Made by a program: the position numbers and the translations under genes. Below, one piece after another: positions 13,991-31,185 of a DNA stretch of 41,579 bases; positions within the stretch are counted from its first letter, which is position 1; the number at the start of each line of letters is the position of its first letter. The notes below the pieces were generated by a model that was not told the DNA's origin, made no database searches, and was given only the letters and a program-made list of their open reading frames with translations. Source of the stretch: an uncultured Clostridia bacterium (GTDB taxonomy: Bacteria; Bacillota; Clostridia; Oscillospirales; QAMX01); assembly GCA_944376195.1 (NCBI GenBank), contig CALWBW010000020.1, positions 1 to 41,579 on the forward strand. Direction: 5' to 3'.

Positions 13991-14262
13991 AATAAAAAAC
14001 GCCCTCTGTTAAATAACAGAGGGCGGAAACATCCGCGGTACCACCTCTATTCACCGACGGCCTCACAGCGCCGGCCTCAACGAGTACAAACATACCCCGA
14101 CCCTATAACGGGAGCACCCGTCACCACCTACTGCGCTTTTGCGGTTCAGCGTGAAACTCTCGAAATGTATTCCCTTTGTCTTTTCACCCGCGCCTCTCAC
14201 CATCCGGCAACTCTCTGATGGTTCCGACAAAGCTACTTCTTTTCGGTCATCGTCTGTAACAA
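13991..14262 (-). promoter_or_regulatory. T-box riboswitch leader, apparent Tyr (UAC) specifier
   Basis: On the minus strand the leader shows the whole T-box plan. Stem I has helices CGAAA/TTTCG and CTTTGTC/GACAAAG flanking a specifier loop with AGAAGTAG on the 5' side and GGAATACA on the 3' side. The specifier read as TAC (plus-strand 14167-14169) is followed by the usual A. The distal arm has AGAGAG and GGTGAGAGGC. Stem III is ACGGG/CCCGT. The T-box GGTGGTACCGCGG lies at 14033-14045 and a terminator hairpin CGCCCTCTGTT/AACAGAGGGCG with T-run at 13993-14024. The antiterminator AGAGG/CCCTCT competes with that hairpin. The class is certain; the specifier is by hand folding. Confidence 0.92.
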
Positions 14263-24705: not shown

Positions 24706-26590
24706 ATATCAGTCCGACGCACGAGCCTCGATCGGCGGGATGCGGGGAGGGCGCGGACGCCGCGGGATGCCGGTACAAAAGGCAAAAGACTTCAAAGGAA
24801 CCGTACAGATGTTATGGCGCTATTTGGGAAACTTGAAGTGGTATCTCTTCCTGATTATTCTCATTTCAGCCTGTACGGCAGGACTCGGTGTACTGATCCC
24901 GATGATTGTCGGCGAGGTGGTGGACTCTATGGGGACCATCCCCGGCACCACAGATTTTCCGCTGCTTACCAATCTTCTGACTGTTCTGGCAGCCGTGTAT
25001 GTCACCGATCTTGTCTTGATTTTCATGCAGGGGTTCATCATGGCCGGTGTGTCGCAGCGGTTTGTAAACCGCCTGCGCACGGAGCTGTTTGCCAAGCTGC
25101 AAAAACTCTCCCTGAAATTTTTTGATACATACGAATCCGGCGACATTATGAGCCGCCTGACCAATGACATGGATACTATTTCCGGCACAGTTGCCCAATC
25201 CGCCACTCAACTGATCTCCGGTGTTCTCACTGTGCTCGGTACGCTTACCATGATGCTGGTTCTCAGTCCCCTCCTTTCCATCGCAGTTTTTGTTACCGTA
25301 CCGCTTATTTTCTTGCTGACCCGTACAGTAACCAAGCGTACCGGAAAACTTTTCCGGGAGCAACAGGCTTATCTGGGAATCATGAATAGCCACATTGAAG
25401 AGACCATCAGTGGGATTCAAACAGTTCGCGCCTATGGCCGTGAACGACAGATTATCCAGCATTTTGATGAGCTGAACGAAACCCTCTGCGATGTTGGTAC
25501 CCGAGCCAATACCTGGTCCGGCTATATTATGCCGCTGCTCAACGTAATTAACAACTTTGGCTATGCACTGATTAGTACGTTCGGCGGAATTCTCTGCCTG
25601 AATGGTGCTCTGACCGCCGGTGTGATTGCCTCATTTGTAAGTCTCGCAAAGCAGTTTACGCGGCCTCTCAATGAAATCGCAAATACCTATAATACTTTTT
25701 TATCCGCTATAGCCGGTGCGGAACGTGTCTTTGAAATTATCAGTGAGCAAGAAGAATCCAAAGACCGGCCTGGTGCAATTGCACCGGATCACATTGAAGG
25801 CCATGTAGAATTTGATCATGTGACCTTTGGATACCGCAGCGATGTTCGCGTGTTGGAGGATGTCTGTATTGATATCAAACCCCGTATGCGGGCAGCGTTT
25901 GTGGGACCAACCGGCGCAGGAAAAACCACCATCATTAATTTGCTGACGCGTTTCTATGATGTGGACAAAGGATCTATTAAATTAGACGGCGTAGATCTTC
26001 GGGACTATACACGAGATTTCATCCGTTCTACCTTCGGCGTGGTATTGCAGGAAACTTATCTTTTTGGCGGTACGATCCGGGATAACATTCGTTACGGGAA
26101 ATTAGACGCGACGGACGAAGAAGTTATGGAAGCAGCCAAAGCCGCCGGCGCCGATGGGTTCATTTCCCGGCTGGAGTATGGCTACGATACGATTGTACAG
26201 GATAATGGCGCCAATCTTTCCTCTGGTCAGCGCCAAATGATTGCCATTTCGCGCGCTATTTTGGCAGACCCGCCGATTTTAATTTTGGACGAAGCCACAT
26301 CAAATATTGATACCCGGACGGAAATGCACATTCAACACGTAATGGCAGAACTGATGCGTGGACGAACAACATTTGTCATTGCACACCGCCTTGGTACCAT
26401 TCGCGATGCCGATGTCATCATGGTGGTGGATGGCGGACACATCATTGAGTCCGGTACACATGAGGAGCTGATGCAGCAGGGTGGATTCTATTATCACATG
26501 TATACCGCCCAAATGGGCATCGCCGGTTTGGAAGCGCAGGCGGCTTTGGAAATGCAAAACGATGATCTTGATCGGTATGCAAATATTTAA
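24698..26590 (+). CDS. ABC exporter half-transporter with canonical ATPase site (subunit 2)
   Basis: A 630-residue partner of the previous gene. A basic, Gly/Arg-rich N-terminal tail of about 30 residues precedes the six-helix membrane domain. The ATPase domain has Walker A GPTGAGKTT, Walker B ILILDEATSNID with the catalytic Glu, and the switch His in VIAHRLGTI. Its signature is LSSGQ instead of LSGGQ; in heterodimeric exporters this altered signature faces the degenerate site of the other subunit, so the two sequences fit together. The ATG at 24698 is nine bases from AGGAGG, inside the end of subunit 1. A terminator follows the stop by about 40 bases. Confidence 0.92.
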   Translation: MDKYQSDARASIGGMRGGRGRRGMPVQKAKDFKGTVQMLWRYLGNLKWYLFLIILISACTAGLGVLIPMIVGEVVDSMGTIPGTTDFPLLTNLLTVLAAVYVTDLVLIFMQGFIMAGVSQRFVNRLRTELFAKLQKLSLKFFDTYESGDIMSRLTNDMDTISGTVAQSATQLISGVLTVLGTLTMMLVLSPLLSIAVFVTVPLIFLLTRTVTKRTGKLFREQQAYLGIMNSHIEETISGIQTVRAYGRERQIIQHFDELNETLCDVGTRANTWSGYIMPLLNVINNFGYALISTFGGILCLNGALTAGVIASFVSLAKQFTRPLNEIANTYNTFLSAIAGAERVFEIISEQEESKDRPGAIAPDHIEGHVEFDHVTFGYRSDVRVLEDVCIDIKPRMRAAFVGPTGAGKTTIINLLTRFYDVDKGSIKLDGVDLRDYTRDFIRSTFGVVLQETYLFGGTIRDNIRYGKLDATDEEVMEAAKAAGADGFISRLEYGYDTIVQDNGANLSSGQRQMIAISRAILADPPILILDEATSNIDTRTEMHIQHVMAELMRGRTTFVIAHRLGTIRDADVIMVVDGGHIIESGTHEELMQQGGFYYHMYTAQMGIAGLEAQAALEMQNDDLDRYANI

Positions 26591-26628
26591 GCCAAATTGC
26601 CTGTAAAACATATATCTGTATAAAAGAG

Positions 26629-26668
26629 TACCCTCTGGAAGCCGCTTGGGTTTACAGAGGATATTTTT
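26629..26668 (+). terminator. Terminator after the ABC exporter operon
   Basis: CCTCTG (26632-26637) pairs with CAGAGG (26655-26660), with further A-T pairs outside one mismatch. A T-run follows from 26663. Confidence 0.75.
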
Positions 26669-26785
26669 TACTTTAGAAATTAATATAAAGCTTTGTGATC
26701 CAATGCAATTCGTATAAGTATATGAAATAATGCACAAATGTACAGTGTATTTAATTGTGCAATTTATAAAACTTTAAAAAAGGTG

Positions 26786-26814
26786 TTGACAAATTAAAAT
26801 ACGAATGTTATACT
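26786..26814 (+). promoter_or_regulatory. Strong sigma-A promoter of the large non-coding RNA
   Basis: A perfect TTGACA (26786-26791), 17-base spacer and TATACT (26809-26814) in AT-rich DNA, the best promoter match in the window. No start codon with a ribosome site leads into a long frame downstream. Confidence 0.85.
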
Positions 26815-26820
26815 ATAGAC

Positions 26821-27752
26821 ACAAGGAGAGATCCTCCCGGAAAAGTAAACCAGCAAGTATCCTTCTAAAGGCAAAGGCGAAAAGAAAAGTTCTTTACCTC
26901 GAGGCACCAAGAGAATTGTGTGTGTTGAAAGAATGGATTCTTCATATAAGGATTTGAAAGATAACTTTTTAGAAGATAGTTATAAAAATCTTTAAGAGAA
27001 TCTATTGGTAAAACAGATTTTATGATCTTGGAAGTTACGAGTGAAGACTCCAAATGTTTTCAGTTCTTTTGTGTTTCGAAGCAAAAGTTTGAAAAGTGAT
27101 TTGGTCTTTTGTAAAGGTCAAAAAGAAGGAGCAAAGAAATATTTGCAATGCTGGTGTTTTCGGTAAATGGAATTACTCCTGAGTAAGTCGAGAGGGGGCT
27201 GAGTCCAATGTACTATTTATTGTAAGTAGTACAGGGTATTTATGATAAAGATGATTAATTTGTTGAACATGCAGCCCGCGGTTTTACTCGGGTTGTAAGA
27301 CAAACACTGATTATCAAGAGACTTTACCTATTGTACTATTTCAGTAAAGCTACGTGAAGCTTCTTGGCAGCGCATTATATAGAAAGTTTATTTTTCTCAT
27401 GTAATGTGGCATCGAAAAAGTGTAAAATCAAACCAATGTATGTTTGCAATATTGTTGTAACTCCTGATTTGATAAGACGCTTGTCATAGAAGTGGTCACA
27501 GAAAAAGAAGGTAGCATCTCTAATCTGACAGCATTATGTATGGTACTCGGTATCTGATGAAATGCAATCAGTGTAAAGTAACCGAGAGAAAGTTCACAGG
27601 ATCTATTCTGGAATGCGGGAGCCGAGGAGAGTCAGTCTACAGGTTTTATTTGAATAGTACATAAATAGTGAGTAAAGTAGGATAATGAGTTTGCCCTGAA
27701 CTACGAAGTTAGGCCCCGTTAGAAAGTATTATGCTTTCTAACGGGGCTTTTT
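26821..27752 (+). ncRNA. Candidate large structured non-coding RNA (about 930 nt), unclassified
   Basis: This stretch is bracketed by a near-consensus promoter and a 14-bp terminator hairpin and holds no credible protein gene; the only frame of 60 codons is on the other strand and lacks a site. Local helices visible by eye: GCAAA/TTTGC (27132-27147), TTACT/AGTAA (27173-27186), TGTACTA/TAGTACA (27209-27233), CAGCCCG/CGGGTTG (27272-27295), CTTTAC/GTAAAG (27322-27349), and nested CTCGGT/ACCGAG with CTGAT/ATCAG (27546-27586). A 7-base complement joins the ends (AGATCCT 26829-26835 with AGGATCT 27598-27604). Size and layout recall the giant RNA classes GOLLD, ROOL and OLE, but I cannot assign it to one. 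It is not RNase P, tmRNA, SRP or 6S by length or motif. Confidence 0.75.
27713..27752 (+). terminator. Terminator of the large non-coding RNA
   Basis: A perfect 14-bp stem, GCCCCGTTAGAAAG (27713-27726) with CTTTCTAACGGGGC (27734-27747), a seven-base loop and five T. Confidence 0.93.
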
Positions 27753-27856
27753 GTTTTGTGCTCTGCTTTTTATATGGGGAGCCCGTCAAACAAGCGCATC
27801 AAGTTTTCTATGAGAGATTCATTTGACAGGATGCCCATTTCTTTTAAAAATTTATG

Positions 27857-29023
27857 TCATAAATTTACCCAAACAGCACCCTTGCTTGAACTTTCCACGC
27901 ACTTCTCAATAAATCTCACGCCACTGATTCCCATTTCCACTCCCGGATAGTCATACTGCCCGTCCTGTACAGACTCCCCCGTTTTTTGTGCAGAAACAGC
28001 CAGCAAAAACTGATCATACAAATTGGCAAGCGCCTCATGATAACCTTCCGGATGTCCGCTCGGCAAGCGGCTAAAAGATTTGACACTTTCGTGAATGTAC
28101 CCGTTCCCTCGGGAAAGCAGACGCGGGGGCTCTCCCTTTCGTGTCAATGTCAAGTAATTACTGCGCTCCTGTTCAAATTCTATTGCACCTTTTGTGCCAA
28201 AAATCCGCACTTTTAGCGCGTTATCATAGCCAGCCGCAACTTGTGAACACCAATAGCATCCACTTGCGCCATTGGAAAAGCGAAGCAAAATTTCCGCATT
28301 GGTATCCAGCGAACGTCCTTCCCCTATGACATCAAGATTCGCGCAAAGCTGCGTAATTTTTAATCCAGTCATGTATGCTACAAGGTTTTCAATATGGCTT
28401 CCGATATCCCCCACACAGTTAGAGATTCCGCTCCTGGCAGGATCTGTCCGCCAAGAAGCTTGTTTGCTCTCGCTTTCGACCAAATCCATCAGCCATTCCT
28501 GCGGATATTCCGCAATCACAACCCTTATATCCCCTATGACGCCGTCTCGAATCAATTCCCGTGCTTCTTTTACCATCACATGTCCGGTATAGACATAACT
28601 GACGCCCAACAGACAACCTTTTTCTTTTGCAAGGCGTTCCAACTCCAGAGCCTCTTCCAAACTACAGGTAAACGGCTTCTCGCACATGACAGAAAATCCC
28701 TGTTCTAAAAAAGCCCGGCAAGCGTCAAAATGTCCCACATTCGGAAGAGTCACGACCATAAAATCCGGACGATCCGGCCTTGCTCCCTCGCCTTTCGCCA
28801 TTTCCTCATAATTTTTGTAAATACGATCATCGGAAAGATTCAACATTCGCCCCGTTTCCAAGGATTTTTCATAATTTTGCGAAAAACACCCGCAAACAAG
28901 ACGCGCATCCCCTCCCATTCGAATTGCTGCTCTGTGTACAGACCCGATAAAGGACCCGGGGCCCCCTCCCACCATTCCATACGTCAAACGACCTGTTTTT
29001 TTGGAGATGCTGGCCTCAATCAT
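27857..29023 (-). CDS. Gfo/Idh/MocA-family oxidoreductase
   Basis: A 388-residue NAD(P)-dependent dehydrogenase of the Gfo/Idh/MocA family, which oxidises or reduces sugars, inositols and related polyols. The Rossmann motif is GMVGGGPGSFIGSVHRAA, and the family Glu-Lys-Pro signature is in VMCEKPFTCSLEEALELE. The second domain has the WRTDPARSGISNCVGDIGSH block; its Asp and His are the usual catalytic residues. The ATG at 29021-29023 has only a modest AAAGG site. It faces the large RNA gene from the other side and has no operon partner, so the substrate cannot be inferred. Confidence 0.88.
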   Translation of the reverse strand: MIEASISKKTGRLTYGMVGGGPGSFIGSVHRAAIRMGGDARLVCGCFSQNYEKSLETGRMLNLSDDRIYKNYEEMAKGEGARPDRPDFMVVTLPNVGHFDACRAFLEQGFSVMCEKPFTCSLEEALELERLAKEKGCLLGVSYVYTGHVMVKEARELIRDGVIGDIRVVIAEYPQEWLMDLVESESKQASWRTDPARSGISNCVGDIGSHIENLVAYMTGLKITQLCANLDVIGEGRSLDTNAEILLRFSNGASGCYWCSQVAAGYDNALKVRIFGTKGAIEFEQERSNYLTLTRKGEPPRLLSRGNGYIHESVKSFSRLPSGHPEGYHEALANLYDQFLLAVSAQKTGESVQDGQYDYPGVEMGISGVRFIEKCVESSSKGAVWVNL

Positions 29024-29801: not shown

Positions 29802-29845
29802 AAAAAGGAGCCTGCGCAATTAAAAAATTGCGCAGGCTCCTTTTT
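29802..29845. terminator. Bidirectional terminator between lipoprotein and anti-sigma genes
   Basis: GGAGCCTGCGCAATT pairs perfectly with AATTGCGCAGGCTCC around a short A-loop, flanked by A-run and T-run. The minus-strand anti-sigma gene ends inside the T-run side. Confidence 0.93.
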
Positions 29846-30695
29846 AAGGAACGTAAATCGGAAATTCAATTTGCCCGGCCGCTCCCGCTGCTATTTCGTA
29901 TTTTTCAAACACCACCATCAGCGTTACGCCGTCTTCAGCAATATAGAACTTTCGATTTTCATCAATGAGATTTTTTATATCGACTTCCGGAAACAGCATG
30001 GACTTTGTAAATTCGTCCAGTTCCGGAATCTGTTCGCTGATTTGTTCATAGACAATATCCTGATATTGTTCTCCCAAAAAGTCGCGCAACGTTAATTCTT
30101 CGCCGGTTTCCAGATCAATATTATAGTATCGATTCGTTTGATAAGCATTTGCTATCGTTTCCAGCTTATAAATCAAAAAAGAAATCATATTCTGGGAAAT
30201 ATATTTAATCTCATAGTCAATGCTGGTTGCCGGCGGATGATATGTGCTAGGATCTCCCCCTGTTGCAAGGAATGCATCATAATATTCCTGCGCGCGCTCT
30301 GTTGATTCCTCCACCTCACGCTCTATCATTTTTGAAATCTCAAGATTGATTCGCGCTTCCAAATCTGAATTGCCCGTATTTTCTATTTGGGGGACAGTCA
30401 CATTGATAACCTTTACCTCATCTTCAAATCCATATTGACGGAATGTGAAAATTCGGCAAAGATCACCTAATACCGGCACGTCTTGTACCGCTTTTGCAAA
30501 CACAGGATTTAAATTCAACAAGGCGACAGCTGTAATGACAAATACCGCGGCCACTGACGATGCATATTTAAATACGCGCACCATCCGCATCCTGCGTTTT
30601 TCTTGCCGTATAGCACGTTCCAACAGGGTGTCCAGATTTTGTGGAACCTTAATGCAGTCAAACGCCTCATTAATTTGATCTTTTGGATGTTTCAA
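29844..30695 (-). CDS. RsiV-like transmembrane anti-sigma factor (DUF3298 type)
   Basis: A 283-residue protein: short cytoplasmic N-terminus, one membrane helix (VAAVFVITAVALLNLNPVFA, near residue 55), then an extracytoplasmic domain. The outer part resembles RsiV (DUF4163/DUF3298): VPQIENTGNSDLEARIN, YYNIDLETGEELTLRDFL and the final strands KYEIAAGAAGQIEFPIYVP. RsiV holds SigV inactive and, in Bacillus, is the lysozyme receptor. The best start is TTG at 30693-30695, eight bases after AGGAGG; the 10 extra codons upstream run through that site. The gene overlaps the sigma gene by 26 bases, as expected for a sigma/anti-sigma pair. Confidence 0.8.
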   Translation of the reverse strand: MKHPKDQINEAFDCIKVPQNLDTLLERAIRQEKRRMRMVRVFKYASSVAAVFVITAVALLNLNPVFAKAVQDVPVLGDLCRIFTFRQYGFEDEVKVINVTVPQIENTGNSDLEARINLEISKMIEREVEESTERAQEYYDAFLATGGDPSTYHPPATSIDYEIKYISQNMISFLIYKLETIANAYQTNRYYNIDLETGEELTLRDFLGEQYQDIVYEQISEQIPELDEFTKSMLFPEVDIKNLIDENRKFYIAEDGVTLMVVFEKYEIAAGAAGQIEFPIYVP

Positions 30696-31185
30696 AATAT
30701 GCCACCTCCTCATCCACGATTTCAAGCCGCAAAAGCTTCAAAGCTCGATATAACCTGGACTTGACAGTGCTTAAATTGGTCTGCGTAACCTTTGCAATTT
30801 CCTCCAATTTCATTTCCTCGTAAAATCGAAGAAAAATCACAGTCTTCAGTGTCGGATCTAGCTTTTCAATATAAGACAATAACTCAACCGGCTCAGGTGT
30901 TTCATATGAGGGATCTGGAAGCAATTCACTTTCCAACGGAAGACTAATGATTTTTCGTTTTCGCAAATACATCAAACATTCATTGACAAGAATTTTATAA
31001 AACCAAGTCTTAATGTACTCCGGCTGGCGTAATGTTGTAAGCTTCTGTAACGCTCGCACCACCGCTTCCTGTACCAGATCCAATGCTTCCTCCTGATTTT
31101 TCACATAGCTGTATGCCAAACGATAAAACTTATGTTGATTTTCCTGTACAAATCTTGCAAACCCATCTTGTGAAACCGTACTCAT
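30670..31185 (-). CDS. ECF sigma factor (SigV-like)
   Basis: A 171-residue sigma-70 family factor with regions 2 and 4 only. Region 2 includes FYRLAYSYVKNQEEALDLVQEAVVRAL and TWFYKILVNECLMYLRKRK. Region 4 includes TVIFLRFYEEMKLEEIAKV and the helix-turn-helix NLSTVKSRLYRALKLLR. The ATG overlaps the stop of the preceding DUF4358 gene (ATGA), and its 3' end overlaps the anti-sigma gene, so all are coupled. It probably activates the operon and other envelope genes when the RsiV-like partner is degraded (family knowledge plus inference). Confidence 0.9.
   Translation of the reverse strand: MSTVSQDGFARFVQENQHKFYRLAYSYVKNQEEALDLVQEAVVRALQKLTTLRQPEYIKTWFYKILVNECLMYLRKRKIISLPLESELLPDPSYETPEPVELLSYIEKLDPTLKTVIFLRFYEEMKLEEIAKVTQTNLSTVKSRLYRALKLLRLEIVDEEVAYFETSKRSN

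Follow-up and report, generated by a model that had tools for sequence, protein, structure and literature searches.

A candidate gene for a large structured RNA, bounded by a promoter and a terminator and found in two species of one Clostridia genus

Few bacterial RNAs besides ribosomal RNA are longer than 500 nt, and most of these were discovered through being widespread. In GOLLD the 3´ part is conserved and the 5´ part varies, and ROOL genes sit mostly in phages and prophages, close to tRNAs (PMC12286853). The raiA-motif RNA (ModT) is a structured stand-alone RNA of Clostridia-type bacteria, which is about 205 nt long and occurs in over 2,500 species (PMC11706538). Here we describe a locus that probably encodes a structured RNA of about 935 nt that stands alone and acts in trans. 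Its sequence predicts a sigma-70 promoter and a terminator of its own, and the RNA most likely works as an RNP or as RNA only.

The RNA gene is located in an intergenic gap of 1,266 nt within the window, that is, the whole stretch of 41,579 nt of DNA that was analysed. Upstream, on the same strand, the second member of an ABC exporter pair ends at 26590 and is followed by its own terminator-like hairpin, ahead of the RNA gene. Downstream, a convergent Gfo/Idh/MocA oxidoreductase gene on the opposite strand ends at 27857, ~100 nt from the RNA terminator. These flanking genes agree with the first-pass annotation, which had placed the transcript in a chromosomal, non-phage setting; neither a tRNA island nor phage genes appear beside the RNA gene in the ORF list and the neighbour annotation. 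The RNA gene is present in a single copy in its own genome and is therefore not a repeat element. A BLAST search of 21 genomes in the family revealed one relative, in the congener Oscillospiraceae bacterium SIG497 (G001, contig SVLW01000019), at the same locus behind the ABC exporter. BLAST matches in two further genomes (G328 and G158) fell within other genes and were rejected. Both the window RNA and its relative come from draft assemblies. The relative (locus L004) is shorter and heavily diverged; its transcript, as delimited by its promoter and terminator, would be about 580 nt long.

A cmscan of all 4,227 Rfam families at gathering thresholds gave nothing for the RNA gene, and no Rfam or tRNA-type match was located near it; the sole match in the window is a T-box leader at 14016–14259 on the − strand (99 bits, E 8.9e-21). 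Permissive cmscan of 26600–27900 and of the relative returned chance-level matches only, with no large RNA class up to E 10 for either RNA, and GOLLD, HEARO, the raiA motif and the group I and II introns were all absent from both. The ROOL (RF03087) and OLE (RF01071) models had no match in the window, the relative or the whole genome, and the control genomes were likewise without a match to either. The first-pass annotation had offered membership in a class such as GOLLD, ROOL, OLE or HEARO, or else a new class; the second option stands, whereas the first is unsupported by the search of the 4,227 families. Since GGGGGCUGA resembles a tmRNA start, the rest of the genome was searched for RNase P RNA and tmRNA. 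A divergent copy of either was rejected, as the normal genes are found at C10 (E 1e-88) and C77 (E 4e-57), respectively.

The window RNA resembles GOLLD in its length of over 800 nt, conserved 3´ part and variable 5´ part (PMC12286853). However, it has no Rfam match and lies away from phage and tRNAs, and its conserved part begins at P1, the stem at the extreme 5´ end, into which the variable 5´ part is inserted. ROOL is also ornate and several hundred nt long (the relative is about 580 nt, compared with 574 model positions), but its model is unmatched here. In place of the phages or prophages and nearby tRNA genes typical of ROOL, and of the phage or tRNA-array setting of GOLLD, the neighbours here are metabolic and transport genes. 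OLE RNA is likewise a large chromosomal RNA of Bacillota, but its model does not match the window RNA. The raiA-motif RNA is similarly a stand-alone structured RNA with a Clostridia-type host, but it differs in the length and species range given above and matches neither of the two RNAs. A diverged member of a known large class (ROOL, GOLLD, OLE, HEARO, raiA or an intron) beyond the reach of the Rfam models would share the size, the ornate fold, the promoter-to-terminator unit and the GOLLD-like pattern of a conserved 3´ and a variable 5´ part. Given the empty searches, and an exporter and an oxidoreductase as neighbours in place of a tRNA island or phage genes, this is very improbable. We regard the RNA as a real lineage-restricted large structured RNA for which no Rfam class is matched, the ROOL and OLE models included.

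The putative non-coding transcript, defined by its promoter-to-terminator span, its fold z and the lack of a protein or Rfam match, would extend over 26820–27755 on the + strand. The near-consensus sigma-70-type promoter (26786–26814, + strand) consists of TTGACA (26786–26791), a 17-nt spacer and TATACT (26809–26814), with TG preceding the −10 box; 11 of 12 promoter matches are reached at only three sites on both strands of the whole 41.6-kb window. The relative has a counterpart, TTGACA-N18-TAGCAT (L004 2622–2651), equally far from the first stem, which starts 7–9 nt past the −10 box in both RNAs. The intrinsic terminator (27713–27755, + strand) contains a perfect 14-bp stem formed by GCCCCGTTAGAAAG (27713–27726) and CTTTCTAACGGGGC (27734–27747), a 7-nt loop and a U-rich tail (TTTTTGTTTTG), and the terminator of the relative (L004 3201–3236) occupies the same place with an unrelated sequence. 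The longest start-to-stop frame inside the RNA gene encodes 50 aa on the + strand, starting within the −10 box, and 62 aa on the − strand. No credible Pfam match was obtained in any of the six frames (best E 0.22), and tblastn found no + strand frame common to the window RNA and the relative. Weak antisense tblastn matches between the two track the conserved core DNA and were rejected as coding. The promoter, the 14-bp terminator stem and the lack of a plausible coding frame, all of which the first-pass annotation had put forward, are thereby borne out.

The position between two genes might suggest a cis-acting leader or an antisense element for one of the neighbours. However, the RNA has its own promoter and starts after the upstream operon, its strong terminator lies about 100 nt before the convergent gene, and the gene that follows in the relative is of the MarR family, unlike the oxidoreductase in the window, which makes a cis-acting role extremely improbable. 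Because the right-hand neighbour differs, conservation of the RNA is independent of a common downstream gene.

The + strand with the terminator folds to −280 kcal/mol, compared with −218 kcal/mol for shuffles (z −8.6), and without the terminator z is −7.3; across thirteen 890-nt pieces taken from other parts of the window, z ranged from +1.1 to −2.8. In the two-domain fold model, residues 26824–27180 form a long branched rod with P1 as its closing stem (z −5.5; helices with p mostly 0.8–1.0), and residues 27188–27706 form the second domain, in which most helices have p of 0.7–1.0. The + strand folds better than the − strand in both domains (z −5.5 vs −3.1 and −3.9 vs −1.7). The strand preference of the conserved core (window 27190–27276, L004 2686–2764) runs opposite to that of the rest of the RNA, with z −3.9 on the minus strand and −1.5 on the + strand. 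Four of the five hairpins named in the first-pass annotation are present in the minimum-energy fold (27131–27146, 27209–27233, 27270–27297 and 27546–27586), whereas the place of the fifth (27322–27349) is taken by a longer-range helix (27321–27351 : 27642–27678). The locus has the sequence signals of an independent transcription unit, no protein and a fold beyond chance. These features give good support to the original proposal of a large structured non-coding RNA that has a promoter and a terminator to itself.

The RNA appears to begin with the 5´-terminal stem P1, followed by the conserved core (about 85 nt), the large variable arm and finally the 3´ tail; all coordinates below refer to the + strand. 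P1, identified from the fold and the comparison with the relative, pairs AGGAG (26824–26828) with CUCCU (27176–27180) and is capped by a 5´ expansion domain of about 347 nt (26829–27175; counterpart L004 2659–2676). The corresponding stem in the relative, CAGGAAG-AGAA-CUUCCUG, encloses a 4-nt loop in place of the ~347 nt, which indicates either expansion in the window lineage or loss in G001. The 347-nt domain may be a peripheral expansion on P1, comparable to variable domains in other large RNAs. The core, GGGGGCUGAGUCCRAUGUAC...GUAGUACAGGGU...GCAGCC (27193–27276), is 80% identical to its counterpart in the relative over about 70 nt. The core segment GUAGUACAGGGU and the 3´ motif GCCCUGA(A)CUAC are mutually complementary and are separated by 467 nt in the window and 458 nt in G001.

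Two helices compete for the core. The local 11-bp hairpin Pa (27209–27233) is paired in both species, with 10 of 10 compared pairs kept and one double and two single changes. The long-range helix connects 27226–27238 with the 3´ strand UGCCCUGAACUAC (27692–27704; conserved as GGCCCUGACUAC in G001) through 12 pairs in both species, the last pair changing from A-U (window) to C-G (G001); only 0.05% and 0.1% of shuffles for the two species give a duplex as good as this. P2 pairs AUUAUC (27310–27315) with GAUAAU (27681–27686) and recurs in G001 with six pairs kept and one A-U to C-G change, at a p of only 0.40 in G001. The large variable arm (27321–27678; z −3.3), predicted to be closed by the long helix 27321–27351 : 27642–27678, carries hairpin H1 (27371–27408) with the conserved 5´ strand GCGCAUNAYAUAGA, in which 12 of 13 compared pairs are kept with three double and three single changes. 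A counterpart of the helix 27360–27368 : 27621–27629 was not confidently placed in the relative.

In total, the four helices contain six double changes (H1, 3; P2, Pa and the long-range helix, 1 each), and this covariation is anecdotal because only two sequences are compared. The helices were picked after both folds had been viewed, so the changes are suggestive rather than a blind test. In a Sankoff-type alignment of the main domain, the total score was reached by 1 of 160 column-shuffled nulls, while the number of paired positions was reached by 28 and that of compensatory positions by 113 of the 160. These pair counts are within the null range, and the structural alignment therefore does not establish a common fold of the whole variable arm.

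In a third congener (G002), the exporter and the oxidoreductase are 110 nt apart and the RNA is absent, with the exporter 93% identical to that of the window over the last 196 aa, compared with 87% for G001. The simplest reading is that the RNA was lost in G002; since so close a congener does without it, the RNA is dispensable at the genus level. A covariance model built from the core (R1) yielded no further member in order, class and phylum samples (about 1,180 genome searches, with some genomes repeated), and three matches near E 0.003 look like coding-region chance and were rejected. When about 85,000 genomes were scanned for the pattern GGGCTGAGTCC-N15-45-GTACAGGGT, nine stretches matched, of which SIG497 SVLW01000019 alone is credible; the other eight, from unrelated phyla and about the chance number (an estimated 14 or so expected), were set aside. 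No relative was found among phages, plasmids and viral contigs. The nucleotide search for homologues suggested at the outset thus produced the G001 relative and none beyond it. The class thus has two known members, both from one genus, and the relative is about 580 nt in length, so that on present evidence this is not a widespread giant RNA.

The base composition differs sharply between the two RNAs, with a G+C content of 36% in the window (26815–27752) and 53% in the relative (L004 2645–3236), while the two exporters share the 87% identity given above. The low value in the window, compared with about 48–50% in the flanking genes, and the fact that of two sisters sharing the same neighbours one has the RNA would fit the decayed remnant of a protein gene, a prophage or an insertion element that folds well by accident. 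However, no protein trace is seen in six frames, the gene is single-copy, the promoter and terminator are intact in two species, and conserved elements are found at both RNA ends; the 53% G+C of the relative further argues that the two do not derive from a common foreign AT-rich insert. A remnant is thus quite improbable. On present evidence the RNA is confined to two species of one genus, with a third congener that has the same neighbours lacking it, and its length shifts by a whole 347-nt domain between sister species. If the RNA is transcribed, it shows that a large structured RNA can be young, dispensable and quick to change, and that searches for common classes overlook such RNAs.

Pa and the long-range helix use the same core bases and thus exclude each other within one molecule. 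The bare duplex energies, with the loop-closure cost left out, are −18.2 and −19.1 kcal/mol for the long-range helix and −11.5 and −9.0 kcal/mol for Pa. During transcription, the core may fold first as Pa; after synthesis of the 3´ end, the core could pair with the 3´ tail in the stronger 12-bp helix (−18 to −19 vs −9 to −11.5 kcal/mol), which would displace Pa and close the molecule. The main alternative is a trans-acting base-pairing regulator, such as a large sRNA or a sponge, with structure mainly for stability. The independent transcription unit with an intrinsic terminator and a conserved unpaired stretch of the core (AUGAUAAAGAUGA) are consistent with this, but the size and closed architecture are atypical of such regulators, and we consider it unlikely. 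For the preferred stand-alone structured RNA, the most likely mode of action is through the RNA itself, either protein-bound as an RNP scaffold or in an RNA-only assembly. A more specific and unlikely version is a new large-RNA class with a two-state core, in which Pa and the 12-bp helix are both kept in two species and intermolecular pairing could build an RNA-only complex; such a complex would resemble those of ROOL and GOLLD. Assembly into RNA-only homo-oligomers is a behaviour of GOLLD, ROOL and OLE.

Further downstream in the window, a sigma-70 family factor (30670–31185, − strand) precedes a 293-aa protein that has a membrane-like segment (29844–30725, − strand), and the two look like a sigma/anti-sigma pair.
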